Source: Buttiauxella agrestis (lineage in GTDB: Bacteria > Pseudomonadota > Gammaproteobacteria > Enterobacterales > Enterobacteriaceae). Taken from it: a stretch of 64,000 bases of DNA. Each line of letters opens with the position of its first letter. Position 1 is the stretch's first letter. Below the pieces are notes generated by a model. The model saw only the letters and a list, made by a program, of their open reading frames with translations, made no database searches and was not told the origin of the DNA. The stretch spans positions 3,064,763 through 3,128,762 of the forward strand of contig NZ_UIGI01000001.1 in assembly GCF_900446255.1 (NCBI RefSeq), read 5' to 3'. Position numbers and translations under genes: made by a program. Below, piece after piece: positions 6,052-19,530 of this stretch.

Positions 6052-7125
6052 ATGAAAAACAAACAATTGTGGATAAATCATATCAAAGGGCTGTGCATTT
6101 GCCTGGTCGTCATTTACCACTCAGTAATCACCTTTTATCCCCACCTGGTTCAGTTCCAGAGCGGGCTCCCGGAATACATCGCTAAGAGCTGGATTTACCT
6201 TAACTTGTATCTGGCGCCCTTCCGGATGCCGGTGTTCTTCTTTATTTCAGGCTTTTTGATAACCCGTTATATCGACGCAGTGCAATGGCGTGATTGTGTT
6301 GATAAGCGCCTGTGGAATATCTTTTATGTTCTGCTGTTGTGGGGCGTCTTGCAGTGGCTGGGAATTTCGTTAATCAACCAGTGGCTGGCGCCGGATCTGG
6401 TACGCAACCCGACCTCTAACGCAGCCTATTCAGAAACCTTGATCCAGTTTGCCACCAGCATGGCGAAAGCCAGCACCAGCCTTTGGTATCTTTATGCGTT
6501 AGTGCTTTATTTCCTGGTGTTCAAAAGCCTGCGTCAATTCAGAGTCCCGGTCATTTTGATGTTGCTGGCCGTGAACGTCGTGATTAGCTTTGCGCCACTA
6601 CCCTGGTGGGGCATGAACAGCGTGGTACGTAATATGTGTTATTACGGGCTGGGAGCGTGGTTCGGTACGCAATTAATGACGGCAATGAAAGAATTTAATC
6701 TTCGTCAGCATCCCCTGATTTGTGCCGCTGCCGCACTGGTTTCAGTGGCGTTGTATCTGGTCAATGTCCCACTCGTGATTTCGCTAGTCTCGATTTTTGT
6801 CATCATGAAGCTGTTTTATCTGCTCGATAACTGGCGTGAAAGCCGTACCGATGCATTCCTTAATATCGTCGGCACCAATACGATTGCTATCTACACCACT
6901 CACCGCATCGTTATCGAAGCACTCAGTTTGTTCACCCTTGGGCAGATTAGCGCCGGACGAATTTCCGATAACCTCTTGCTCGCCATTCTGATGGTTTACC
7001 CGTTTGTCAGCCTGGCGATTTGCACGGTATTAGGGTTAGGTTTCAGGAAATTATCGCGTGCTGCGTTTGGTGACATGTTCTTTTCACCGCCAGCTAAATT
7101 AGTGCCCGCAACGCAGGCGCGTTAA
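6052..7125 (+). CDS. ycfT: YcfT, multi-pass acyltransferase-3 family protein
   Basis: Member of the acyltransferase-3 (OafA/OpgC-like) integral membrane family; substrate and acceptor are not known. About ten hydrophobic segments are visible, with the family hallmarks of an early His in CICLVVIYHSVITF (residues 13-26), the FRMPVFFFISGFL motif near residue 60 and IAIYTTHRI near residue 285. Length is 357 aa, the same as E. coli YcfT. ATG at 6052. It is divergent from lolC and co-directional with mfd, with 151 bases between. Confidence 0.88.
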   Translation: MKNKQLWINHIKGLCICLVVIYHSVITFYPHLVQFQSGLPEYIAKSWIYLNLYLAPFRMPVFFFISGFLITRYIDAVQWRDCVDKRLWNIFYVLLLWGVLQWLGISLINQWLAPDLVRNPTSNAAYSETLIQFATSMAKASTSLWYLYALVLYFLVFKSLRQFRVPVILMLLAVNVVISFAPLPWWGMNSVVRNMCYYGLGAWFGTQLMTAMKEFNLRQHPLICAAAALVSVALYLVNVPLVISLVSIFVIMKLFYLLDNWRESRTDAFLNIVGTNTIAIYTTHRIVIEALSLFTLGQISAGRISDNLLLAILMVYPFVSLAICTVLGLGFRKLSRAAFGDMFFSPPAKLVPATQAR

Positions 7126-7276
7126 GTCACACTCTGTGGACGATGAATCCCAGGTTGCGGTGCGATTGTGTTGCTAATACAAAACGATCGCGGATAATAA
7201 TAAGCAACTTCTTGACGCGTCTGGTGGTCATTTGCCCACAAAGCACGGCGCAACCTGAGAGATTCTGACATCCGAT

Positions 7277-10200
7277 ATGCCTGAAAATTATCGCTACTCC
7301 TTACCTGTAAAAGCTGGCGATCAGCGCCAGCTTGGTGAACTCACCGGCTCTGCGTGCGCGACTGAAGTTGCCGAAATCACTGAGCGCCATAATGGCCCGG
7401 TGGTGTTGATCGCCCCTGATATGCAGAATGCGCTGCGTCTGCATGACGAAATCAGCCAGTTTACGGAAAGCATGGTGATGAATCTTGCCGACTGGGAAAC
7501 CCTGCCTTACGACAGTTTCTCGCCGCATCAGGAAATCATCTCTTCACGTTTATCAACACTATATCAGCTACCAACCATGCAGCGCGGCGTGTTAATCCTG
7601 CCGGTGAATACTCTGATGCAACGCGTGTGTCCACACAGCTATTTACACGGACACGCGTTAGTGATGAAGAAAGGCCAGCGTTTGTCGCGTGATAACCTGC
7701 GCAGCCAGCTGGAACAAGCCGGTTATCGCAGCGTTGATCAGGTCATGGAGCACGGTGAATTTGCGACCCGTGGCGCATTGTTGGATTTGTATCCGATGGG
7801 CAGCGACCAGCCCTATCGCATCGACTTTTTCGATGATGAAATCGACAGCCTGCGCGTTTTTGACGTAGATACGCAGCGCACGCTCGAAGAAGTCGACGCC
7901 ATTAACCTGCTCCCTGCGCACGAATTCCCGACCGATAAATCCGCCATCGAGCTGTTCCGCAGCCAGTGGCGCGACAAGTTTGATGTGAAGCGCGAGCCTG
8001 AACATATTTACCAGCAGGTCAGTAAAGGCATGCTCCCGGCGGGGATTGAATACTGGCAGCCGCTGTTCTTCAGCGAACCATTACCGCCACTTTTTAGCTA
8101 TTTCCCAAAAAACACGCTGCTGATTAATACCGGTGATATCGAAACCAACGCCGAGCGTTTCTGGCAGGATACGTTTGCCCGTTTCGAGAATCGTGGCGTT
8201 GACCCAATGCGCCCGCTGCTTCCGCCAGAAAGCCTGTGGTTACGCGTTGACGAACTGTTCAGCGAACTAAAAAACTGGCCGCGCATTCAGCTCAAAACGG
8301 AATCGTTAGCCGACAAAGCTGCGTTTACCAACCTGGGTTATCACGCCCTACCCGATCTATCCGTTCAGGCGCAGCAAAAAGCGCCGCTCGATAACCTGCG
8401 TAAATTCCTTGAATCTTTCGATGGCCCCGTCGTATTTTCCGTCGAAAGTGAAGGCCGCCGTGAGGCATTAGGCGAACTGTTAGCGCGAATTAAAGTTGCC
8501 CCGAAACGTATTTATCGGCTCGATGAAGCGGCCGATAAAGGCCGTTATTTAATGCTGGGTTCCAGCGAACATGGTTTTATCGACACGCTGCGCAACCGGG
8601 CGCTAGTTTGTGAAAGTGACCTGCTGGGAGAGCGCGTCAGCCGCCGCCGTCAGGACAGCCGTCGCACTATTAACCCGGATACGTTGATTCGCAACCTGGC
8701 CGAGTTGCATACCGGGCAGCCTGTTGTGCACCTCGAGCATGGCGTCGGGCGATATGCCGGCCTCACCACTCTTGAAGCGGGCGGTATTACAGCTGAATAC
8801 CTGATGCTGACCTACGCAGGGGACGCCAAACTTTATGTCCCTGTTTCGTCGCTCCATTTAATTAGCCGTTATGCGGGTGGTGCCGAAGAAAATGCACCAT
8901 TGCATAAGCTCGGCAGCGATGCCTGGTCGCGCGCGCGTCAAAAAGCGGCTGAGAAAGTGCGCGATGTGGCGGCAGAACTGCTGGATATTTACGCTCAACG
9001 TGCCGCCAAACAAGGCTTCGCCTTCAAGCATGACCGTGAACAGTACCAAATGTTCTGCGATGCTTTCCCGTTTGAAACCACACCGGACCAGGCGCAGGCC
9101 ATCAACGCGGTATTAAGCGACATGTGCCAGCCCTTGGCCATGGACCGCCTGGTATGTGGCGACGTCGGCTTTGGTAAAACCGAAGTTGCGATGCGTGCCG
9201 CTTTCCTCGCGGTGGAAAACAACAAACAAGTTGCGGTACTCGTGCCAACGACGCTGCTGGCCCAACAGCACCTCGACAACTTCCGTGACCGTTTTGCTAA
9301 CTGGCCGGTGCGTATCGAAATGCTGTCGCGTTTTCGTACCGCTAAAGAGCAAGCGCAAATTCTGGAAGAGGCGCGTGAAGGGAAAGTCGACATTCTTATC
9401 GGCACCCATAAGCTGCTGCAAAATGATGTGAAGATGAAAGATCTCGGCCTGCTGATCGTCGATGAAGAGCACCGTTTTGGTGTGCGCCATAAAGAGCGTA
9501 TCAAGGCGATGCGTGCCGATGTGGATATTCTGACGCTGACCGCCACCCCGATTCCACGAACCTTGAATATGGCGATGAGTGGAATGCGCGATTTATCGAT
9601 TATCGCTACTCCGCCAGCCCGCCGTCTGGCAGTGAAAACCTTCGTGCGTGAATACGACAGCCTGGTGGTTCGCGAAGCCATCCTGCGCGAAGTGCTGCGT
9701 GGCGGCCAGGTTTACTATCTTTACAATGATGTTGAAAACATCCAGAAAGCGGCAGACAAACTCGCGGAATTGGTTCCGGAAGCGCGAATCACCATCGGTC
9801 ACGGCCAAATGCGCGAGCGTGAACTGGAACGGGTGATGAACGATTTCCACCACCAGCGTTTTAACGTGCTGGTGTGCACCACGATTATCGAAACCGGTAT
9901 CGATATTCCGACAGCCAACACCATTATCATTGAACGTGCAGACCATTTCGGCCTCGCGCAGCTGCACCAGCTCCGTGGCCGCGTTGGGCGTTCGCATCAC
10001 CAGGCTTATGCGTGGCTGCTGACGCCTCACCCGAAAGCCATGACCACCGATGCGCAAAAGCGCCTCGAAGCTATCGCTTCTCTCGAAGATTTAGGGGCGG
10101 GTTTTGCGCTGGCAACACACGACCTGGAAATCCGAGGTGCAGGTGAATTGCTTGGTGAAGGCCAAAGCGGCTCAATGGAAACAATCGGCTTTTCTCTGTA

Positions 10201-10775: not shown

Positions 10776-10886
10776 ACATTTACACATTCTTTTCAAATCA
10801 CCAGGGTTTCCCTACATCTTCAACCGCCATAATTCGCGATTAACTTTTTAATAACATTAACCTTAATAATAATGAGGTTTCGCTTA

Positions 10887-11858
10887 ATGCAGTCGTCGCG
10901 ACTTTTCTCTTTACCTGTTCGTTGGTTGGCATCGCTGATGCTGGTCAGTGCAAGCCTTGCCGTTTTCCCGGCAAGCGCTAATTCCTACCCTCTGCCGCCT
11001 GAAGGCAGTCGCCTTATCGGCCAGAACTTTTTCCATGTGGTCGAAGATAACGGCGGCTCGCTTGAAGCCATCGCCAAAAAATACAATGTCGGCTTCCTTG
11101 CCCTGCTTCAGGCAAATCCAGGTGTTGATCCGTATGTGCCACGTGCGGGTAGCGTGCTGACGATTCCGCGCCAGATGCTATTGCCAGATGCGCCGCGTCA
11201 GGGGCTGGTAATGAATCTTGCCGAACTGCGTGTTTATTACTATCCCGCAGGGAAAAATAGCGTAACCGTTTACCCGATTGGCATTGGCCAACTCGGTGGC
11301 GACACCGTGACACCAACTATGGTCACAAGCGTTTCAGATAAACGCGCCAACCCGACCTGGACGCCAACGGCCAATATTCGCGCTCGCTACCTGGCGAACG
11401 GAATCAAACTTCCGGCGGTCGTTCCAGCCGGGCCGGAAAACCCAATGGGCCACCATGCCATCCGCCTCGCAGCCTATGGTGGCGTTTATCTGCTGCACGG
11501 AACGAATGCGGACTTTGGGATTGGAATGCGCGTGAGTTCTGGCTGTATTCGACTGCGTGATGACGATATTAAAGCGTTGTACAAAGAGATGCCTGTTGGT
11601 ACGCCTGTGCGCATCATCAACACCGCGATTAAAACCTCAGTGGAGCCAGATGGCAGGCGTTTAGTTGAAGTCCATCAGCCTCTGTCTAAACACATTGATG
11701 ACGATCCAAAAGTACTACCGATTGTGTTAACAGAGCAGATGAAACAGTTCCAGTCTGCACCAGAAACAGATGCTAACGTCATGGAACAAGCCATGCAGCA
11801 CCGCTCCGGGATGCCGATTGAAGTGAACGCGTACGGTATTGCCAGCAACGAGATTTAA
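10887..11858 (+). CDS. ldtC: LdtC (YcfS), L,D-transpeptidase
   Basis: Periplasmic enzyme that attaches Braun lipoprotein to peptidoglycan. It has a Sec signal peptide (MQSSRLF...LAVFPASA, about 31 residues), a LysM module (FHVVEDNGGSLEAIAKKYNVG to LTIP, about 45-90) and a YkuD catalytic domain with HGTNADFGIG and the active-site SSGCIRL. I choose the ATG at 10887, preceded by TGAGG at good spacing and giving a signal peptide like the E. coli one. An in-frame ATG at 10872 would add five residues without a clear ribosome-binding site. Its terminator is shared with bhsA copy 1. Confidence 0.93.
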   Translation: MQSSRLFSLPVRWLASLMLVSASLAVFPASANSYPLPPEGSRLIGQNFFHVVEDNGGSLEAIAKKYNVGFLALLQANPGVDPYVPRAGSVLTIPRQMLLPDAPRQGLVMNLAELRVYYYPAGKNSVTVYPIGIGQLGGDTVTPTMVTSVSDKRANPTWTPTANIRARYLANGIKLPAVVPAGPENPMGHHAIRLAAYGGVYLLHGTNADFGIGMRVSSGCIRLRDDDIKALYKEMPVGTPVRIINTAIKTSVEPDGRRLVEVHQPLSKHIDDDPKVLPIVLTEQMKQFQSAPETDANVMEQAMQHRSGMPIEVNAYGIASNEI

Positions 11859-11872
11859 TTGTTTTGAGATGC

Positions 11873-11906
11873 AAAAAGGCCCTGTTTTTTAACAGGGCCT
11901 TTTTTT
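11873..11906. terminator. Bidirectional terminator between ldtC and bhsA copy 1
   Basis: AAAAAGGCCCTGTT-TTTT-AACAGGGCCTTTTT is a perfect 14-bp stem with T-runs on both strands, so it can end both ldtC and the convergent bhsA copy. A diverged version occurs again at 13110-13137 before the second bhsA. Confidence 0.85.
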
Positions 11907-11930
11907 ATGAAACTCATTTTTCCGTGAGTC

Positions 11931-12188
11931 TTATTTATAAATTACCGCAGTACCGTGCAATGTATTCGGACCGGTTACTGAAGTAATACGGAATGAACTC
12001 GCACCCATTTCTTCAGCTTTCTGAGCCAGTTGGTCTTCAAGAGAACCCAGGTTAGTCCCGGCGGTTGCAGTGATAGTGCCTACTTTCTGCTGGCCTGCTG
12101 GCGTTGCCTGAACTTCAACAGCCGCGAAGCTTGCAAAAGAGATTGAGCTAAGAACAACAGCAGCGATAAGAGTTTTTACGTTTTTCAT
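11931..12188 (-). CDS. bhsA: BhsA (ComC/YcfR) copy 1, YhcN/DUF1471 stress protein
   Basis: Small periplasmic/outer-membrane protein of the YhcN family. In E. coli BhsA is induced by many stresses and by copper, and affects biofilm and copper permeability. 85 aa with signal peptide ending SFASFA-AVEVQ (cleavage near residue 22) and the family C-terminus SFRITSVTGPNTLHGTAVIYK. It differs from the second copy at only about five residues (positions 29, 33, 40, 42, 60). ATG at 12188. Divergent from comR copy 1 across a regulatory spacer with CRP-like and palindromic sites. Confidence 0.95.
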   Translation of the reverse strand: MKNVKTLIAAVVLSSISFASFAAVEVQATPAGQQKVGTITATAGTNLGSLEDQLAQKAEEMGASSFRITSVTGPNTLHGTAVIYK

Positions 12189-12238
12189 GATTTTTGACCT
12201 TAAGCAGATGATTTGTAAGCCCGTTAAATTTATTTACT

Positions 12239-12250
12239 TAACGTTCGATA
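12239..12250. promoter_or_regulatory. Operator-like site A1 near the bhsA copy 1 start region
   Basis: TAACGTTCGATA is a near match to the inverted repeat TAACG-NN-CGTTA. It lies downstream of the CRP-like site, where the bhsA -10 or start point is expected. The same motif sits at the equivalent place in unit B (13480-13491). Candidate ComR site; inference from position and repetition only. Confidence 0.5.
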
Positions 12251-12263
12251 AGTAAATCATAAA

Positions 12264-12279
12264 CGTGATCTGCGTCACA
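12264..12279 (-). promoter_or_regulatory. CRP-like site in the bhsA copy 1 promoter
   Basis: On the minus strand TGTGA-CGCAGA-TCACG matches the CRP consensus TGTGA-N6-TCACA at 9 of 10 conserved bases. It is flanked by TTGACG upstream and TATGAT downstream (18-base spacing), so it sits inside a candidate sigma-70 promoter. Confidence 0.6.
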
Positions 12280-12295
12280 CGTCAAATTATTTTTA

Positions 12296-12307
12296 TAACG
12301 ACCGTTA
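12296..12307. promoter_or_regulatory. Operator-like palindrome A2
   Basis: TAACG-AC-CGTTA is a perfect 5-2-5 inverted repeat upstream of the candidate bhsA -35. It is identical in unit B at 13537-13548. Probable ComR-family operator. Confidence 0.55.
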
Positions 12308-12395
12308 ATTATTTTATTAATGACTTATTTTTCATACAGATAGCCATGATTTATTTTTGGACAAACTAGCACTAGAACCCATGAGATATTATTTT

Positions 12396-12409
12396 TATAA
12401 TGATCGCTC
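12396..12409 (+). promoter_or_regulatory. comR copy 1 -10 with overlapping operator-like site A3
   Basis: TATAAT at 12396-12401 overlaps TAATGATCGCTC (12398-12409), a weaker relative of the TAACG-NN-CGTTA motif. Its place at the comR promoter suggests autoregulation. The equivalent in unit B is 13638-13649. Confidence 0.45.
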
Positions 12410-12439
12410 ATAAAATAGAAAAGGTTAAAACGGCTAATT

Positions 12440-13072
12440 ATGTCTACCGACACCTGCGATACCAAAAAAAGCCGTGGCCGACCAAAAGTGTTCGACAAAG
12501 AATCCGCACTCGATAAGGCCATGGTTTTGTTCTGGCAACACGGCTACGAAGCCACTTCAATGGCACATCTGGTTGAAGCAACAGGGGCAAAAGCCCCAAC
12601 GTTATATGCCGAATTCACCAATAAAGAAGGTTTGTTCAAGGCTGTCTTAGACCGTTACCTTGCTCGTGTGACGAAACTGCGAGAGACCTGCCTGCGTTGT
12701 GACAATCGAACGCTTGAAGAGGCGCTTGAGGATTATCTTTATCTGGTGGCGAAACTGTTTACCGATAAAGAAACCCCAACGGGGTGCTTTATGATTTGTA
12801 CTTCGTCCGTTCTGGCAGTCTCTTCGCACGATATCTCTGAAATGATCAAGGCTCGTCAGTCTCTGCTCGAAGCCACGCTGCTTAAATTCCTCGAGCAACA
12901 CCAGCAGAAAGGTGAAATCCCGGCCACAACATACGTTGGAAATTTGGCTAGATACCTGTGTTGTATTGTTCAGGGCATGTCAGTCAGCGCACGGGAAGAC
13001 GCGAGCCACGAGGAATTAATGCAGATCGTCAACACGACACTTCGCTTGTTACCGGAGCTGAAAAAAATCTAA
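12440..13072 (+). CDS. comR: ComR (YcfQ) copy 1, TetR-family repressor
   Basis: TetR-type regulator; E. coli ComR represses bhsA and is relieved by copper. 210 aa, same length as E. coli. The N-terminal helix-turn-helix (about 12-60) reads KSRGRPKVFDKESALDKAM...ATGAKAPTLYAEFTNKEGLF. Between residues 9 and 73 it differs from copy 2 at only about four positions, whereas in residues 74-210 about 45 of 137 differ. Start is the ATG at 12440. Inferred: both repressors bind the same operators but may sense different signals. Confidence 0.93.
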   Translation: MSTDTCDTKKSRGRPKVFDKESALDKAMVLFWQHGYEATSMAHLVEATGAKAPTLYAEFTNKEGLFKAVLDRYLARVTKLRETCLRCDNRTLEEALEDYLYLVAKLFTDKETPTGCFMICTSSVLAVSSHDISEMIKARQSLLEATLLKFLEQHQQKGEIPATTYVGNLARYLCCIVQGMSVSAREDASHEELMQIVNTTLRLLPELKKI

Positions 13073-13075
13073 CCC

Positions 13076-13096
13076 TCGGCGGCGCCTGCCGCCCTT
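13076..13096 (+). terminator. GC-rich hairpin after comR copy 1
   Basis: GGCGGC-GCCT-GCCGCC followed by CTTTTC directly after the comR stop is a small rho-independent-like terminator. A related hairpin follows copy 2. Confidence 0.55.
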
Positions 13097-13109
13097 TTCA
13101 GCAATAGAA

Positions 13110-13137
13110 AAAGACCCTGTTTTTCAACAGGGCCTTT
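13110..13137. terminator. Terminator copy before bhsA copy 2
   Basis: AAAGACCCTGTT-TTTC-AACAGGGCCTTT is the same hairpin as at 11873-11904 with one stem mismatch. It marks the left edge of duplication unit B and should end transcription of bhsA copy 2. Confidence 0.7.
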
Positions 13138-13172
13138 CTTATGGAGAGAATTTTTACTTAGAGGGCACAGGC

Positions 13173-13430
13173 TTATTTATAAATTACCGCAGTACCGTGC
13201 AATGTATTTGGGCCAGTGACTGAAGTAATGCGGAATGAACTTGCGCCCATTGCTTCAGCTTTCTGCGCCAGTTGGTCTTCCAGAGAACCCAGGTTAGTCC
13301 CGGCGGATGCGCTGATAGTCCCTACTTTCTGCTCGCCTGCTGGAGCAGCCTGAACTTCAACAGCTGCGAAGCTTGCAAAAGAAATTGAACTAAGAACAAC
13401 AGCAGCAATAAGAGTTTTTACGTTTTTCAT
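13173..13430 (-). CDS. bhsA: BhsA (ComC/YcfR) copy 2
   Basis: 85-aa YhcN-family protein with the same signal peptide as copy 1 and about five substitutions in the mature part (for example Thr to Ala at 29 and Glu to Ala at 60). ATG at 13430. Expected role is as for copy 1. Its promoter region has the same CRP-like and operator-like elements. Which copy is the E. coli orthologue cannot be told from the protein; copy 1 keeps the E. coli-like residues TP and GQQ in the segment after the signal peptide. Confidence 0.94.
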   Translation of the reverse strand: MKNVKTLIAAVVLSSISFASFAAVEVQAAPAGEQKVGTISASAGTNLGSLEDQLAQKAEAMGASSFRITSVTGPNTLHGTAVIYK

Positions 13431-13479
13431 GATAGTTACCTTGAAATAATTATTTATAAGGCCGTTAAATTTATTTACT

Positions 13480-13491
13480 TAACGTTCGATA
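13480..13491. promoter_or_regulatory. Operator-like site B1 near bhsA copy 2
   Basis: TAACGTTCGATA, identical to site A1 at 12239-12250 and in the same relation to the CRP-like site. Confidence 0.5.
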
Positions 13492-13504
13492 ACTAAATCA
13501 TAAT

Positions 13505-13520
13505 CGTGATCTGCATCACA
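13505..13520 (-). promoter_or_regulatory. CRP-like site in the bhsA copy 2 promoter
   Basis: Minus strand TGTGA-TGCAGA-TCACG, equivalent to 12264-12279 with changes only in the central six bases. The conserved arms are unchanged, which suggests that they are under selection. Confidence 0.6.
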
Positions 13521-13536
13521 CGTCAAATTATTTTTA

Positions 13537-13548
13537 TAACGACCGTTA
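13537..13548. promoter_or_regulatory. Operator-like palindrome B2
   Basis: TAACG-AC-CGTTA, identical to A2 at 12296-12307. Confidence 0.55.
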
Positions 13549-13635
13549 ATTATTTTATAAAAGCTCTTATTTTCATAAGCATAGGAATTAATTATTTTTT
13601 CACTCTTCCCTATAGCTACTGCGTGATATTATTTT

Positions 13636-13649
13636 TATAATGATCGTTC
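13636..13649 (+). promoter_or_regulatory. comR copy 2 -10 with overlapping operator-like site B3
   Basis: TATAAT at 13636-13641 overlaps TAATGATCGTTC (13638-13649), one base closer to TAACG-NN-CGTTA than the unit A version. Confidence 0.45.
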
Positions 13650-13678
13650 AATAAACAGACAAAGGTTAAACGGCGCAT

Positions 13679-14311
13679 ATGTCATCTGATACGACTTGCA
13701 TTAAAAAAAGCCGGGGCCGACCGAAGGTGTTTGACAGGGAAGCAGCACTCGACAAGGCTATGGCTTTGTTCTGGCAACACGGTTATGAGGCCACTTCATT
13801 GGCGCATCTGGTTGAAGCGACGGGCGCAAAAGCTCCGACGCTGTACGCAGAGTTCACCAACAAAGAAGGGTTATTCAAGGCCGTTCTGGATCGCTATATC
13901 GAACGTTTCTCGCAAATGCGTGAGAATTGCCTGTTCTGCGAAGAACGCACGCTCGAACAAGCACTGGAAGATTATTTTTCGCTGATTGCGAAGCTCTTTA
14001 CTGAGAAAGACACCCCAACAGGTTGCTTTATCATCTGTACCTCCTCCGTGCTGGCAGCGTCTTCGGAAGATATCGCGGCAGTGATAAAAACGCGCCAGTC
14101 GATGCAGGAAGAAACACTGGTGCGTTTTCTGGCAAAGCGCCAGGAACAAGGCGAAATGCCTGCGACCAGTTGTATCCGTAAACTGGCTAAGTACCTGTGC
14201 TGTATTATTCAGGGGATGTCTGTGAGCGCGCGCGAAAACGCCAGCTATGAAGAGCTGATGCAAATCGTGAATACGACGATGCGGCTGATGCCAGAACTTA
14301 AAAAAATCTAA
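13679..14311 (+). CDS. comR: ComR (YcfQ) copy 2, TetR-family repressor
   Basis: 210-aa TetR-family regulator paralogous to copy 1. The DNA-binding half is nearly unchanged (ATSLAHLVEATGAKAPTLYAEFTNKEGLF). The effector half diverges, although the central TPTGCFxICTSSVLA and the C-terminal QGMSVSARE...EELMQIVNTT segments are kept. Features such as IERF and LFCEERTLEQALEDYF make it slightly closer to E. coli ComR than copy 1. ATG at 13679. It ends 29 bases before the stop of the convergent siderophore-interacting protein gene. Confidence 0.93.
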   Translation: MSSDTTCIKKSRGRPKVFDREAALDKAMALFWQHGYEATSLAHLVEATGAKAPTLYAEFTNKEGLFKAVLDRYIERFSQMRENCLFCEERTLEQALEDYFSLIAKLFTEKDTPTGCFIICTSSVLAASSEDIAAVIKTRQSMQEETLVRFLAKRQEQGEMPATSCIRKLAKYLCCIIQGMSVSARENASYEELMQIVNTTMRLMPELKKI

Positions 14312-14313
14312 TA

Positions 14314-14340
14314 CAGGGCGGCGTTTGCCGCCCTACTCTT
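14314..14340. terminator. Hairpin between comR copy 2 and the SIP gene
   Basis: GGGCGGC-GTTT-GCCGCCC at 14316-14333, followed by TACTCTTTT, is a modest terminator shared by the two convergent genes. Confidence 0.55.
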
Positions 14341-15234
14341 TTAACGCACTCGCCCTTGACTCCAGTACGCCATAAAGTTGATTGCATCATGGTTCACGCC
14401 ACATTCACCAATCAAATGGCGGCGCAGGAGTTTCACCACTGTGGATTCTGCCGCGACCCAGCCATAAAAATCATTGCTGCCCGTGGTCGCTTTATCCCAC
14501 AACAGTTCGCCTTCCGCTTCTTCATTAAGTGCTTCCGTCACGCCTGCTGCTTCAGGTACCTGCACATTTTCTCTCACAGATTTAAGCAGGCATTCTCCAT
14601 GCGAGGCATTCGCTGGTTTACGCGCTAACCAGTGAATTTTCGCGAAGCTGAACTCGCTCAAATCGACACAGTCGCCTTCGTCTGGCACTTCAAAAAATGC
14701 CTGAATTTGTGGCGGGTTCTGCCCCGCAGCCAGCAATTCAAGAATACCTTTCGCCGCGGCCAATGCCGTTTCGTCGGCGATGATTAGCCCATGGCGTAAA
14801 CCGCTCGGCGGAGTCCATTCGTATCCACCGCTGTCTTGAGCATATTCGGCATTAGGCGCAACGATTTGAATCTGGTCGCCAGGCTGGGAGTTAATTGCCC
14901 AGGCTGATGCCGGGCCTTCCGTACCGTGGCTGACAAATTCAACGGTGACTTCCTGGCGCTCGCGATCAACCTTGCGCAAGGTATAAGTGCGCACCACGGG
15001 TCGCTTTTCCCTGGGCAATTGTTGCAGCAACTGATACCACTCACCTTGATTAGGCAGAGCCGGAATGGAGCCATCTTCAGAGGGAAATAACATTTTGATT
15101 CGCTGATCGGGCGAGTCACATTTCATATGTGCAACGTCCGGGCCGCCGAAAACCAGACTTAATAGCGAAGGTGAAACTTGCGATTTATGCACTAGCTGGA
15201 CATTAAACAAGCGATACCCTTGCACTCCTGCCAT
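14341..15234 (-). CDS. Siderophore-interacting protein (ViuB/YqjH-type ferric reductase)
   Basis: Cytoplasmic flavoprotein family that reduces imported ferric siderophores to release iron. 297 aa. The FAD-binding motif RTYTLR is at 82-87, a NAD(P)H-binding region follows (GLIIADETALAAAKGILELL), and the C-terminal SIP signature is GWVAAESTVVKLLRRHL. No signal peptide. ATG at 15234. Divergent from iutA over a strong Fur box, which points to reduction of ferric aerobactin or another hydroxamate after import. It is absent from this place in E. coli. Longer than E. coli YqjH (254 aa), so it is a family member rather than a clear orthologue. Confidence 0.85.
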   Translation of the reverse strand: MAGVQGYRLFNVQLVHKSQVSPSLLSLVFGGPDVAHMKCDSPDQRIKMLFPSEDGSIPALPNQGEWYQLLQQLPREKRPVVRTYTLRKVDRERQEVTVEFVSHGTEGPASAWAINSQPGDQIQIVAPNAEYAQDSGGYEWTPPSGLRHGLIIADETALAAAKGILELLAAGQNPPQIQAFFEVPDEGDCVDLSEFSFAKIHWLARKPANASHGECLLKSVRENVQVPEAAGVTEALNEEAEGELLWDKATTGSNDFYGWVAAESTVVKLLRRHLIGECGVNHDAINFMAYWSQGRVR

Positions 15235-15323
15235 TTCGACTCCTTTGCCGCTTCAGGCCTACATCCAGAAAAAGTAAACCACATAAATCATGTGATTATT
15301 CATAAGATTAATTTAAGAAATAC

Positions 15324-15341
15324 TATCAATTGAGATTGATA
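15324..15341. promoter_or_regulatory. Second overlapping Fur-like inverted repeat
   Basis: TATCAAT-TGAG-ATTGATA overlaps the left edge of the main Fur box by a few bases. Such overlapping 7-1-7-type arrays are common at Fur promoters. Its TATCAA arm could also be the -35 (TTGATA on the minus strand) of the SIP gene. Confidence 0.5.
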
Positions 15342-15356
15342 ATGAGAACCGTTATC
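15338..15356. promoter_or_regulatory. Fur box controlling iutA and the divergent SIP gene
   Basis: GATAATGAGAACCGTTATC matches the 19-base Fur consensus at 16 positions. It overlaps a candidate iutA promoter (TTGATA at 15336-15341, 17-base spacer, CAAAAT at 15359-15364), so iron-loaded Fur should block it. Confidence 0.85.
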
Positions 15357-15425
15357 GGCAAAATTCAGTCCGTTCTTATTTCAAAATATTTTCAAATGTT
15401 AATCTTTTCCATCTAAGGAATGATG

Positions 15426-17618
15426 ATGATGCATAAAAATGCACGCTGGGTGCTTAACCCGCTGCTACTGGCTATGATGGCTCCGGCTTTTGCGCAGCAA
15501 ACTTCAGAAGAAGATATTCTGGTTTCTGCGAACCGTATGCACCGTACCGTGGCAGAAATGGCGCAGACGACCTGGGTTATCGAAGGAACTGAACTCGAAC
15601 AACAAATCCAGGGTGGCAAGGAGCTGAAAGATGCACTTGCACAGTTAATTCCAGGGCTTGATGTCAGCAGTCAAAGCCGCACCAACTACGGCATGAACAT
15701 GCGCGGCCGCTCTATCGTGGTGTTGGTAGATGGTGTTCGTCTGAATTCTTCCCGTACCGATAGCCGCCAGCTTGATTCCATTGACCCGTTCAACATCGAG
15801 CATATTGAAGTGATTTCCGGCGCGACCTCTTTGTACGGCGGCGGCAGTACCGGTGGTTTGATTAACATTGTCACCAAAAAAGGCCAGCCTGAAACCCAGA
15901 TGGAATTTGAATCGGGTATTAAATCAGGCTTTAACAGCAGCAAAGATCACGATGAGCGTATCGCAGGGGCTATTTCTGGCGGCAACGAACATGCGTCCGG
16001 CCGAATGTCGGTGGCCTATCAGAAGTTCGGTGGCTGGTTCGATGGCAATGGCGACCAGACTCTGCTTGATAACACGCAAACCGGCTTGCAGTATTCTGAC
16101 CGTCTGGATGTGATGGGAACAGGCACGCTCAATATTGATGAAACTCAGCAATTACAGTTAGTGACGCAATATTACAAGAGCCAGGGCGATGATGATTACG
16201 GATTAGACCTGGGCGAAAACTTCTCGGCTGTTACCGGAAATGGTAATGCTTACGTCAGCGACCAGCTCAATTCAGACCGTATTCCAGGCACCGAGCGCCA
16301 TCTGATTAGCCTGCAATATTCCAACAGCGATTTCCTCGGCCAGGAGCTGGTTGGGCAGATTTATTATCGTGATGAATCCCTGACGTTCTATCCGTTCCCG
16401 ACCCTGACGCGTGGCGCAGTCACCAGTTTCTCGGCCTCGCAGCAAGATACCGATCAGTACGGCGCAAAACTCGCACTGACCAGCCAGCCCGTTGATGGCT
16501 GGCAAATTACCTACGGTGTGGATGCCGATCACGAAAGCTTTACCTCAAACCAGAAATTCTTTGATTTAGCCAAAGCGAATGCCTCAGGTGGATTGAACAA
16601 CCAAAGCATTTACACCACCGGGCGCTACCCTGGCTACAGCATTACTAATTTCGCGCCATTCGCGCAAACCAGCTATGACATCACCGACATGTTTACGCTA
16701 AGCGGCGGCGTCCGTTACCAGTGGACTGAAAATAAAGTTGATGATTTTGTTGGCTTTACTCAGCAGCAAGGCATTGCAAATGGTATAGCTCAATCAGCGG
16801 ATTTTATCCCTGGCGGCACGACTGATTACGACAATGCGTTGTTCAATGCTGGCGTGTTAATGCACATCACTGAGCGCCAGCAAGCATGGTTTAACTTCTC
16901 GCAAGGCGTTGAATTACCTGACCCAGGCAAATATTACGGTAACGGGACTTACCGCCTGGTCAACGGCCATTATCAACTGGTGAACAGCGTGAACGTTGCA
17001 CAGTCAAAACTTCAGGGGATCAAGGTCGATTCTTATGAATTGGGCTGGCGCTATTCGGGTGATAGCCTGCGCACTCAGATTGCGGCGTACTACTCACTAT
17101 CTGACAAATCTATCTCCATCAACCGTGCAGATATGACCATCAATGTTGAAGATGATAAACGCCGCATTTACGGCGTTGAAGGTGCCGTGGATTACTTTAT
17201 TCCAGACTCAGACTGGAGTACCGGTGTTAACTTCAACGTGCTGAAATCCGAAACCAAAGTGGATGGAAAATGGCAGAAATGGGACGTGATATATGCCAGC
17301 CCATCGAAAGCCACGGCATATGTGGGCTGGGCGCCAGAACCATGGAGCCTGCGTGTCCAGAGCCAGCAGACCTTTGATTTAACCGATGCCAGCGACAATA
17401 AAATCAACGGTTACAACACCGTCGACTTTATCGGTAGCTACGCTCTGCCGCTGGGTAAGCTGAGCTTCAGCATCGAAAACTTGCTGGATAAAGACTACAC
17501 CACCGTTTGGGGTCAGCGCGCGCCTCTGCTCTACAGCCCAACTTACGGCAGCCCATCGCTGTACGAATACAAAGGTCGTGGACGCACTTACGGCGTGAAT
17601 TACTCCCTGCAATTCTAA
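15426..17618 (+). CDS. iutA: IutA, TonB-dependent ferric aerobactin receptor
   Basis: Outer-membrane receptor for ferric aerobactin. The protein follows plasmid/ExPEC IutA almost residue by residue: LNPLLLAMMAPAFAQQ signal peptide, VSANR...VAEMAQTTWVIEGTELEQQIQGGKELKDALAQLIPG plug, the SGATSLYGGGSTGGLINIVTKKGQPET plug motif, VELPDPGKYYG, and the C-terminal TVWGQRAPLLYSP with terminal aromatic QF. Four ATGs in a row begin at 15420. AAGGA ends right before the first, so I place the start at 15426 (MMHKNARW), which gives proper spacing and the closest match to E. coli IutA. No iucABCD genes lie in the window. A terminator follows. Confidence 0.93.
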   Translation: MMHKNARWVLNPLLLAMMAPAFAQQTSEEDILVSANRMHRTVAEMAQTTWVIEGTELEQQIQGGKELKDALAQLIPGLDVSSQSRTNYGMNMRGRSIVVLVDGVRLNSSRTDSRQLDSIDPFNIEHIEVISGATSLYGGGSTGGLINIVTKKGQPETQMEFESGIKSGFNSSKDHDERIAGAISGGNEHASGRMSVAYQKFGGWFDGNGDQTLLDNTQTGLQYSDRLDVMGTGTLNIDETQQLQLVTQYYKSQGDDDYGLDLGENFSAVTGNGNAYVSDQLNSDRIPGTERHLISLQYSNSDFLGQELVGQIYYRDESLTFYPFPTLTRGAVTSFSASQQDTDQYGAKLALTSQPVDGWQITYGVDADHESFTSNQKFFDLAKANASGGLNNQSIYTTGRYPGYSITNFAPFAQTSYDITDMFTLSGGVRYQWTENKVDDFVGFTQQQGIANGIAQSADFIPGGTTDYDNALFNAGVLMHITERQQAWFNFSQGVELPDPGKYYGNGTYRLVNGHYQLVNSVNVAQSKLQGIKVDSYELGWRYSGDSLRTQIAAYYSLSDKSISINRADMTINVEDDKRRIYGVEGAVDYFIPDSDWSTGVNFNVLKSETKVDGKWQKWDVIYASPSKATAYVGWAPEPWSLRVQSQQTFDLTDASDNKINGYNTVDFIGSYALPLGKLSFSIENLLDKDYTTVWGQRAPLLYSPTYGSPSLYEYKGRGRTYGVNYSLQF

Positions 17619-17626
17619 GTTTCCCG

Positions 17627-17658
17627 CAGCAGGCTGGCTAAAAACCAGCCTGCTTTTT
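17627..17658 (+). terminator. iutA terminator
   Basis: AGCAGGCTGG-CTAAAAA-CCAGCCTGCT followed by a T-run ends iutA, so the oxidoreductase gene downstream probably has its own promoter. Confidence 0.8.
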
Positions 17659-17757
17659 ACTCTCATACACAAAATCCTTCTCGACCAAAACCCAGTAGTC
17701 ATTTAAAACATAGGGACTCTAATGATAGGTACAGCTTATATTTGGTAGGATTAGCTT

Positions 17758-18786
17758 ATGTTGGCAGGTTTAATCGGTTTAGGTTCAGTCATCGAAACAG
17801 CATATCTCCCGGCGCTGCGCCGCATTTCTCCTCCCTTGCTCGAATGTTACGGTTATGACGCCGATCCCGCGCGTCAGATTGACGGGATTAACCGTTGTGA
17901 TTCCCTGGACGCACTGCTGGCAATGCCGCTCGATGTGGTGCTAATCACGACGTCTTCTCTGCATCACCTACCCGTTCTTGAGCGCGTCTTGCAAAGTGAC
18001 GTGCCTGCTATTGTGGTAGAAAAACCGATCGCTGCCACGCTTGCACAACTTGAGACACTTAAAACTCTGCTCGCAAAGCCGCAAAATGCCGCCCGTGTTC
18101 TGGCTTTGGATCACTGGATGGTTCGCACTCAGGCGTGCAATCACATTCACAACATCAATGAAATAAAGTGCATCGAAGGTTTTTTACTCGAGCCAAGTGG
18201 TTTTAACGCCGCGGGTGAGCCAATTGCCCTGAATTTTGCTACCGGTGAAGCAGACACTCGCCAGTTGCATCACCCAGACGGCGTAATTGTAGATATCGGC
18301 ACTCATACTCTCGCCATGATGCGTGAAACCGTTCATGAATTAGGTGGCAATGACCAGCTCACCGTTGAACTCAACTACGCACGCGATCGCCTCGGGAATG
18401 CGATTGCAGCGGGGGATTTCACTACAGCGGAAGGTGAAGCGCTGTTAACCGGGACTCTCAGTGGTATTCCCTTTACGCTCCATCTCAACAAATATGCCGG
18501 GCCTGCTGGCGGTCAAAAAGGGATGCGTATTCATCTTCATGACGGGCAAATGATCAATATCGACCGTGAGGGAATGAATGAGGTGGTGGAAAGGATCTCT
18601 GAGCAGGGAACCGAGCGCAGTACCCTCGCCGGGCCGCTTTACGACCGTTGTTTACATGATGTGGTTTTTGGCGAACAAAGGCTGTTTTTGCGCACGCCTG
18701 ACGAAATACCCGCCTACACTCAGCGCCGCATAGCAGAAGTTACTGCGCTGCTGGAGCTGCAACAGCAGTTACGCGGTAGTCATTGA
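17758..18786 (+). CDS. Gfo/Idh/MocA-family oxidoreductase, function unknown
   Basis: 342-aa NAD(P)-dependent dehydrogenase-like protein. It has an N-terminal Rossmann motif (GLIGLGSVIE, residues 4-13), the family EKP motif at 88-90 (VVEKPIA) and a C-terminal Gfo-type DIGTH motif at 179-183, so the catalytic Lys and His positions look intact. TAGGA precedes the ATG at good spacing. It lies between iutA and ycfJ, a place where E. coli has no gene. Substrate is unknown. The family includes sugar and inositol dehydrogenases and the thiazolinyl imide reductases of siderophore synthesis, so a siderophore link is possible but unsupported by sequence. Confidence 0.75.
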   Translation: MLAGLIGLGSVIETAYLPALRRISPPLLECYGYDADPARQIDGINRCDSLDALLAMPLDVVLITTSSLHHLPVLERVLQSDVPAIVVEKPIAATLAQLETLKTLLAKPQNAARVLALDHWMVRTQACNHIHNINEIKCIEGFLLEPSGFNAAGEPIALNFATGEADTRQLHHPDGVIVDIGTHTLAMMRETVHELGGNDQLTVELNYARDRLGNAIAAGDFTTAEGEALLTGTLSGIPFTLHLNKYAGPAGGQKGMRIHLHDGQMINIDREGMNEVVERISEQGTERSTLAGPLYDRCLHDVVFGEQRLFLRTPDEIPAYTQRRIAEVTALLELQQQLRGSH

Positions 18787-18788
18787 GC

Positions 18789-18815
18789 AAAAGCCCATCT
18801 CACAAGATGGGCCAT
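18789..18815. terminator. Terminator between the Gfo/Idh gene and ycfJ
   Basis: GCCCATCT-CACA-AGATGGGC at 18793-18812. On the minus strand it is followed by TTTTGC, so it mainly serves ycfJ and may also stop the convergent oxidoreductase gene. Confidence 0.65.
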
Positions 18816-18827
18816 GATTTATAACCA

Positions 18828-19364
18828 TTAGATTTTATTCAAAACTAGCTGGCCATTGTTATCCAGCGGGATTTGCGTGCCAGGGTCTTTATCCATACGG
18901 ATTTTACCCTGCTGATCGCCAATGCGGTACGTCACGTCGTAGCCCAGCATTTTTTCTGACTTGTCGTAGATAGTTTTACATTTCTGCTGCGTGGTGGTGT
19001 AGGTGTCGCGATCTTGCATCGCACCTTGAACCTGATTACCCGCATAACCCCCGCCCAGAGCACCGGCTACCGTCGCCACATCTTTACCACGCCCGCCACC
19101 AAACTGATGGCCAATCACGCCACCGGCAACGGCACCTAACGCTGAACCGAGAATACGGTTTTCATCCTGAACCGGACGACGATGAGTCACCGCGACGTTA
19201 CGGCATTCCTGACGTGGTGTTTTTACCGTTTCCTTGATAGGTGTCGCTGACACCACCTGTGCGTACTGAGGGCCACGGTCAAAAACATTCATGCTGGCAA
19301 CCGCTGCCACACCCAGTGCTGCGGCCACACCGATACCTATACCCGCTAACATTGATTTATTCAC
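18828..19364 (-). CDS. ycfJ: YcfJ, glycine-zipper 2TM-domain protein
   Basis: Envelope protein with an N-terminal hydrophobic segment (MLAGIGIGVAAALGVAAVA) and a glycine-zipper region (LGSALGAVAGGVIGHQFGGGRGKDVATVAGALGGGYAGNQ, about 70-110). 178 aa against 179 in E. coli. Function is poorly defined. Start is GTG at 19364, read MNKSMLAG, behind a strong AGGAGG. In E. coli it adjoins comR; here an islet of about 4.5 kb separates them. Confidence 0.9.
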   Translation of the reverse strand: MNKSMLAGIGIGVAAALGVAAVASMNVFDRGPQYAQVVSATPIKETVKTPRQECRNVAVTHRRPVQDENRILGSALGAVAGGVIGHQFGGGRGKDVATVAGALGGGYAGNQVQGAMQDRDTYTTTQQKCKTIYDKSEKMLGYDVTYRIGDQQGKIRMDKDPGTQIPLDNNGQLVLNKI

Positions 19365-19530
19365 AGGACATCCTCCTGACTGTGCAATTGCTTACAATTT
19401 TGCAACCAGAGGGCGTATAAGACAAATCAGACAACGGATGAAAAGTGCGGATCCATAGGCTGAAACTATGTGTTTGAGAGAAATCCTAAGCATGAAATGC
19501 TCATTTATGGATTTTTATGCTGAAACGTCA

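Follow-up and report, generated by a model that had tools for sequence, protein, structure and literature searches.

Tandem bhsA-comR modules in Buttiauxella agrestis, with effector and regulator genes of apparently different history

The locus considered here lies in Buttiauxella agrestis (RefSeq assembly GCF_900446255.1, contig NZ_UIGI01000001.1, positions 3,064,763 to 3,128,762), of which we analyzed one stretch of 64,000 nucleotides (hereinafter the window, to which positions refer). It carries two adjacent units of about 1.24 kb, each composed of a terminator, a minus-strand bhsA gene for a stress protein, a divergent promoter region of about 250 bases, and a plus-strand comR gene for a TetR-family repressor. 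The gene order is mfd, ldtC, unit 1, unit 2, the genes for a siderophore-interacting protein (SIP), a TonB-dependent siderophore receptor (TBDR) and a GFO/IDH-type oxidoreductase (Gfo), ycfJ and ndh, where the names mfd, ldtC, ycfJ and ndh follow the Escherichia coli gene order, together with similarity. The genes and terminators are as follows:

11873..11904, no strand: palindromic terminator between convergent ldtC and bhsA1 (inverted repeat I5, perfect arms of 14 nt)
11931..12188, minus: bhsA1, stress protein of 85 amino acids (open reading frame [ORF]; PF07338; NF047859 at 134.8 bits)
12440..13072, plus: comR1, TetR-family repressor of 210 amino acids (ORF; TetR_N)
13078..13093, plus: GC-rich palindrome 3′ of comR1, then CTTTT, terminator-like (read by eye; absent from the terminator-scan list)
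13108..13140, no strand: terminator between convergent comR1 and bhsA2 (repeat family D8; stem 13115-13132)
13173..13430, minus: bhsA2, 85 amino acids (ORF; NF047859 at 133.8 bits)
13679..14311, plus: comR2, TetR-family repressor of 210 amino acids (ORF; TetR_N)
14313..14336, no strand: terminator between convergent comR2 and the SIP gene (terminator-like on both strands)

Both BhsA proteins pass the NCBIfam equivalog model for BhsA (NF047859, cut-off 90 bits). Each comR diverges from its bhsA, and its orthology to the annotated E. coli comR follows from position and similarity; no model bearing the name ComR was among the NCBIfam matches of the two proteins. The units are linked by direct repeats with a start-to-start spacing of 1235-1242 bases, which cover the terminators (11873/13108, 91%), the bhsA genes (11927/13169, 91%), the intergenic regions (12197/13438, 85%; 12385/13625, 84%) and the 5′ portion of comR (12464/13703, 77%). 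Repeats and ORFs thus agree with an earlier note made from the sequence alone, which had described two such adjacent 1.24-kb units; the end it gave, 14335, falls inside the comR2 terminator, and its coordinates are therefore right. RNA-family models gave no match at gathering score in 10800-19500.

The nearest genome compared is that of B. agrestis ATCC 33320 (G001, locus L031), which has 36% of sampled 31-letter words in common with the window and whose second comR is 100% identical to comR2 of the window. The survey of related genomes that the earlier note had proposed recovered a side-by-side comR pair in ATCC 33320 and B. izardii (G005, locus L032) and a single comR in the remaining 10 of the 12 Buttiauxella genomes (matches above 70% identity). 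The full tandem layout is seen in the window and in these two genomes, which are the only ones with two units among 80 loci examined, a few of which end near the gene so that a second unit could be missed there. An assembly artefact is an unlikely source of the tandem copies, because they differ widely in sequence and the same layout recurs in the two other assemblies. In a family-wide survey of 392 genomes drawn from a larger group, comR was detected at E ≤ 1e-45 in 166, of which 16 have at least two copies, all copy counts being lower bounds with at most seven candidates scored per genome. Adjacent copies occur in three of the 16, namely ATCC 33320, B. izardii and a genome of another genus (G139); several others have their comR genes on different contigs (e.g., G134, with 400 contigs), where adjacency is possible. 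The G139 copies stand 1.49 kb apart (L129, 4164-6295) with one recognized bhsA between them; an ORF next to them matches HlyD and AcrB domains. In E. coli, unit 1 was matched in 5374 of 5426 genomes, with a median of one match position per genome and never more than two, consistent with the earlier statement that E. coli has one. A search of 72,556 plasmid records for a close comR1 relative found none, the 28 matches all being 60-80% identical. A contig titled UNVERIFIED_ORG Buttiauxella agrestis ATCC 33320 strain DSM 4586 (JALKFA010000001.1; L040) has one unit and clusters with Buttiauxella sp. A111 in four flank trees, apart from L031. Both carry the ATCC 33320 label, and one of them is probably mislabelled.

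The two BhsA proteins of the window differ at 5 of 85 residues and the two ComR proteins at 53 of 210, as the earlier note had it. The earlier note had read this as an effector far more constrained than its regulator, a claim that fails because the synonymous divergence of bhsA is low too. By the LWL85 method, non-synonymous and synonymous divergence (dN/dS) between the window copies are 0.027/0.36 for bhsA and 0.134/1.88 for comR, giving a ratio of about 0.07 for both genes, although this equality is only rough because comR dS is saturated. At fourfold degenerate sites 12 of 48 differ in bhsA versus 48 of 77 in comR (Fisher p=5e-5); since synonymous sites show the same contrast as the residues, we rejected the residue counts as a measure of constraint. 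As a yardstick we used 54 pairs drawn from nine single-copy genomes and copy 1 of ATCC 33320 and B. izardii, excluding the B. massiliensis-B. gaviniae pair because its comR was recently exchanged. The bhsA/comR ratio of fourfold divergence has a median of 0.80 and a minimum of 0.42 in these pairs; the window copies, at 0.40, fall below all 54, and those of B. izardii stand at 0.80, with 27 of the 54 as low. Codon bias is a doubtful cause of the low bhsA dS, as the bhsA fourfold difference over the 54 pairs has a median of 0.42 and amounts to a median 0.80 of that in comR. It appears, then, that bhsA is alike in the agrestis genomes since its copies are younger there, and stronger constraint is not needed as an explanation.

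The source of this youth is best read as gene conversion of bhsA in the agrestis lineage after its split from B. izardii, to judge from the distribution of shared sites. When the copies of the window and of B. izardii are taken as a quartet, sites uniting by copy versus by genome stand at 9:2 for the terminator, 3:5 for bhsA, 32:1 for the intergenic DNA and 81:2 for comR; replacing the window by ATCC 33320 gives 9:0, 4:6, 29:1 and 76:5. Sites of the crossed pattern, in the same order, number 1, 3, 0 and 3 with the window and 2, 4, 1 and 5 with ATCC 33320. By Fisher tests on the quartet counts, bhsA departs from the intergenic region (p=4e-4) and from comR (p=2e-5). Copy identity is kept on both flanks of bhsA, and the exchanged tract would therefore have been about the size of the bhsA coding sequence. 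Synonymous divergence between bhsA1 and bhsA2 is 0.36 in the window, 0.44 in ATCC 33320 and 0.97 in B. izardii; conversion is placed after the agrestis-izardii split because the agrestis values are lower than the divergence between these species in bhsA1 (0.64) and in the flanking TBDR gene (0.71). The resulting signature, namely likeness within a genome beyond that of the neighboring sequence, synonymous sites included, is present in the window and ATCC 33320, if at few informative sites, and was not seen in the B. izardii copies.

Several observations count against conversion as the explanation, in addition to the saturation of comR dS. No grouping stands out among the bhsA quartet sites, of which only eight are informative for copy versus genome (3:5) with three crossed, and resolution in the bhsA tree is poor, with 3 of 28 inner branches starred. 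At sites that separate the B. izardii copies, the two agrestis copies side with bhsA1 over bhsA2 by only about 2:1, and the fourfold ratio of ATCC 33320 is 0.49, with 2 of the 54 pairs as low or lower. Moreover, B. izardii bhsA2 is a fast or foreign outlier. Its product (L032, 7758-8012) differs from BhsA2 of ATCC 33320 at 23 of 85 residues and has GSNH in place of GPNT near the C-terminus.

A likeness within a genome exceeding what neighboring genes predict is how concerted evolution of bacterial paralogues is described in one study (PMC6053082). The present case is similar in this respect; it differs in that a single small effector gene is involved and the paired regulator diverges. It offers a natural example of the effector and the regulator of one duplicated module having different histories, and of a tandem pair that separates true constraint from gene conversion, which residue counts alone miss.

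Unlike bhsA, comR groups by copy: comR1 of the three genomes forms one clade and comR2 another (support 100/100 each). Because of this grouping across the window, ATCC 33320 and B. izardii, both copies must predate the agrestis-izardii split, and with complete modules in all three genomes the earlier claim of an old duplication that was kept holds in its age and retention. The word duplication itself fared less well. The sister group of the comR1 clade is the comR that B. massiliensis and B. gaviniae carry in single copy (100/99 in the DNA tree, 100/98 in the protein tree; a clade we named after seeing the tree), while comR2 lies among the other single-copy species. The approximately unbiased (AU) test rejects a single clade of the six copies, as the earlier note's claim would predict, for comR as a whole (p=0.0006 for protein, 0.007 for DNA). 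When comR is divided into segments, codons 76-210 reject this clade (p=0.003) and codons 1-75 do not (p=0.19). In the intergenic region it is the grouping of unit 1 with massiliensis/gaviniae that is rejected (p=0.001), whereas the six-unit clade is not (p=0.15). A comR of 176 codons from a metagenome-assembled genome (MAG, L049) was dropped from the comR trees, and the segment trees comprise 21 of the 30 rows, those of 210 codons. Thus, the separation into unrelated clades that would have spoken for independent acquisition is found in part for comR, with the clades lying within one genus, and the intergenic region lacks that split. On these trees, the comR1 sensing domain rejects a simple duplication limited to the agrestis-izardii lineage, and the intergenic region does not. 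What is supported is that the comR split predates the agrestis-izardii split, that both copies have descended since, and that the comR1 sensing domain shares ancestry with that of massiliensis/gaviniae.

Three histories were weighed for how this pattern arose. By the first, a foreign bhsA-comR unit from another Buttiauxella-like lineage recombined in beside the resident one, a scenario to which we give less than even odds. It accords with comR2, and not comR1, sitting with the other single-copy Buttiauxella, and with nine residues common to comR1 and massiliensis/gaviniae comR and to no other Buttiauxella compared (each of eight other comparators shares none or one). Furthermore, the massiliensis/gaviniae comR does not follow that of their relative B. 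noackiae (AU p=0.0005 for protein, 0.016 for DNA), and the Gfo gene of these species is nearer to that of the window (17758-18786; fourfold divergence 0.31-0.32) than are Mfd, SIP and TBDR (0.48-0.58), itself a sign of allele exchange. A search for remnants of a second unit in six ldtC-bhsA gaps of more than 150 bases (three in Buttiauxella, three elsewhere, among 16 loci; B. noackiae L038 and the MAG L049 fell outside this set) found none that was convincing, all matches being short and the best 17 bases at E 0.016. Nevertheless, the intergenic region of unit 1 rejects the massiliensis/gaviniae grouping and does not reject the six-unit clade, no donor was found among the genomes compared, and outside agrestis and izardii every comR compared is very distant from comR1.

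The intergenic result sits more easily with a second history, for which our confidence is similarly short of even, whereby the unit was duplicated within the agrestis/izardii lineage, comR1 then changed fast, and its sensing domain was exported to massiliensis/gaviniae. A clade of comR1, comR2 and massiliensis/gaviniae comR is not rejected (AU p=0.14 for protein, 0.23 for DNA), nor is the six-copy clade for codons 1-75, though it is for codons 76-210. However, the best trees place comR2 with other species, and the fourfold divergence between comR1 and comR2 (0.53-0.62) exceeds the values for Mfd and TBDR when the window is set against other Buttiauxella species (0.40-0.52), even if it resembles those for SIP (0.53-0.60). 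The third history, a duplication older than the Buttiauxella radiation after which unit 1 was lost in most lineages and unit 2 in massiliensis/gaviniae, is unlikely: the AU test does not reject a tree that sets comR1 and massiliensis/gaviniae apart from all other Buttiauxella (p=0.07 for protein, 0.36 for DNA), but about five or more separate clean losses would be needed (counted on the flank trees, with B. noackiae missing from those of Mfd and LdtC), the searched gaps hold no convincing remnant, and the massiliensis/gaviniae intergenic regions are not of the unit-1 type.

The two repressors have diverged unevenly. Between agrestis and izardii, the residue differences number 25 in ComR1 and 4 in ComR2, with dS of 0.74 and 0.54, respectively (Fisher p=6e-5); between the agrestis strains the counts are 5 and 0, and in all 12 relative-rate comparisons ComR1 exceeds ComR2 in unique changes (p<0.05 in 10, the comparisons not being independent). 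A structure model of ComR1 (mean predicted local distance difference test score 84.1, predicted template-modelling score 0.74) has as its nearest solved fold CifR of Pseudomonas aeruginosa (PDB 6nsn; TM-score 0.83, about 30% identity), which is also among the best sequence matches. The 53 ComR1-ComR2 differences affect none of the 8 residues of the recognition helix, 14 of the 27 in sensing-domain helix 7, and 8 of the 38 in helices 8 and 9, presumably the dimer face by general TetR anatomy. A Gly-Cys-Phe at residues 115-117 is kept by all 30 aligned ComR proteins, and its Gly-Cys aligns with a Gly-Cys in the CifR sensing domain. CifR has another target gene, and papers on E. coli give copper as the ComR inducer. 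Six cysteines (alignment columns 85, 88, 117, 121, 175, and 176) are common to all 15 Buttiauxella ComR proteins listed; one at column 166 (residue 165) is absent from ComR1 of the window and present in ComR1 of ATCC 33320 and B. izardii and in the three ComR2. That the copies are redundant and on their way to loss, with window comR1 decaying and only unit 2 working, is improbable: the faster change of ComR1 and its missing column-166 cysteine would suit it, but the comR1 frame is intact in three genomes, its dN/dS between species is 0.060/0.74, the O1 and O2 boxes described below are kept, and the sole comR of massiliensis/gaviniae lacks the same cysteine.

Between bhsA and comR, both units carry a set of operator-like boxes of the shape AAYGNNCRWTMA together with a CRP-like palindrome and a sigma-70-like bhsA promoter:

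12240..12251, plus: operator-like box O1 of unit 1, AACGTTCGATAA, 52-63 bases upstream of the bhsA1 start (pattern scan)
12256..12285, minus: bhsA1 promoter-like TTGACG-18-TATGAT, 10/12 (consensus scan)
12265..12280, plus: CRP-like palindrome of unit 1, GTGATCTGCGTCACAC (intergenic alignment)
12297..12308, plus: operator-like box O2 of unit 1 (pattern scan)
12399..12410, plus: weak box O3 of unit 1, AATGATCGCTCA, off pattern (intergenic alignment)
13481..13492, plus: operator-like box O1 of unit 2 (pattern scan)
13497..13526, minus: bhsA2 promoter-like TTGACG-18-TATGAT (consensus scan)
13506..13521, plus: CRP-like palindrome of unit 2 (intergenic alignment)
13538..13549, plus: operator-like box O2 of unit 2 (pattern scan)
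13639..13650, plus: operator-like box O3 of unit 2 (pattern scan)

The promoter consensus scan found 7 sites where 4.2 are expected and is not by itself evidence of function; the alignment comprises 30 of 84 bhsA-comR intergenic regions. Across the 84, the O1 core TTAACGWTYGATA is present in 82 and the CRP-like palindrome GTGAT-N4/5-TCAC in 78; the box pattern occurs at O2 in 56 and at O3 in 31. O1 and O2 occupy corresponding positions in both units in each of the three genomes. The putative O1 overlaps the expected transcription start and O2 lies upstream of the -35 element, a layout that would suit repression. In E. coli, according to a review (PMC10141476), a ComR site lies about 60 bp upstream of comC and self-regulation is absent; the position of O1 relative to bhsA1 is comparable.

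In the circuit that we propose, each ComR would act as a TetR-type repressor of its divergent bhsA. Because the recognition helix is the same in both proteins and both promoters have the same main boxes, either ComR, or a mixed dimer, would be expected to bind both promoters, making one cross-wired circuit and not two separate ones. The diverged sensing domains, with ComR1 changing faster than ComR2, suggest that inducer sensitivity may differ, so that two distinct inputs to one output, as the earlier note had proposed, are possible given a shared recognition helix. The output would probably be more BhsA under copper, oxidant or envelope stress, by analogy with E. coli bhsA. For that gene, two papers (PMC7558416, PMC12096828) report that BhsA lowers or affects copper entry and that expression is induced by copper via ComR and by hypothiocyanite; the former, a review, also states that copper import falls without BhsA, leaving the direction of the effect unsettled.

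The box evidence also has points that tell against cross-wiring. The pattern was drawn from these very regions, and its count in the window only modestly exceeds chance (7 versus 3.28 expected; 7 of 100 shuffles reached this count). The strict form occurs nowhere in 20 of the 84 regions, and in the E. coli locus (L104) it is found at O1 alone. O3, the box near comR, is off pattern in unit 1 and on pattern in unit 2 in all three genomes, so the two promoters are not quite alike; this difference is small and might affect comR expression.

Taking all this together, the best joint explanation, to which we give a probability of about 0.6, is a cross-wired tandem pair whose origin predates the agrestis-izardii split, with a tangled comR1 history in which the sensing domain shares ancestry with the massiliensis/gaviniae lineage, and in which, as the sequences support, one bhsA tract overwrote the other in the B. 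agrestis lineage once that split had occurred, this being the main cause of the BhsA likeness. A more speculative and rather doubtful extension is that the Buttiauxella ComR sensing domain is an allele exchangeable between species, the DNA-binding half, main operators and effector remaining fixed; agrestis and izardii would keep two sensors on the same operators, with the agrestis bhsA copied over, as a switch of two sensors and one effector in which mixed dimers may take part. Should ComR1 and ComR2 answer different signals via shared operators, the locus would be a compact model for wider sensing with unchanged output; failing that, it is no more than a routine difference in copy number inside a single genus. 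In kind, it is a tandem pair of a known module, an ordinary sort of duplication kept in two species.

The E. coli bhsA (ycfR, comC)/comR (ycfQ) locus has the same gene pair, divergent layout and neighbors mfd, ldtC, ycfJ and ndh. It differs in being found at a median of one place per genome, whereas the Buttiauxella locus has two units whose repressors have diverged, and an iron-uptake cassette separates comR2 from ycfJ. This interval (14341-18786) holds the SIP, RhtA-like TonB receptor and oxidoreductase genes; elsewhere, several Citrobacter and Enterobacter loci have the TonB receptor only, and E. coli L104 has none of the three. Neighboring DUF1471 genes, and a second ycfR-like gene in Salmonella, have been noted (PMC4092069); the G139 comR pair is also different, with another context and only one recognized bhsA. 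We found no paper treating Buttiauxella together with bhsA nor, among the titles listed, one on tandem bhsA-comR.

Among other loci, Kosakonia sacchari SP1-titled contigs L110 and L074 each carry bhsA-comR, L110 without the usual neighbors within 7 kb. Between B. massiliensis and B. gaviniae (L033 and L034; comR at 7001-7630), fourfold sites differ at 3 of 94 in comR, 20 of 48 in bhsA and 33 of 338 in TBDR; the near-identical comR beside differing bhsA points to separate recombination of neighboring genes. L033 additionally has TetR-like and MFS-transporter-like ORFs (named by eye) at 12241-14076, between the oxidoreductase gene and ycfJ, and a gap of similar size is present there in L034 and L038.

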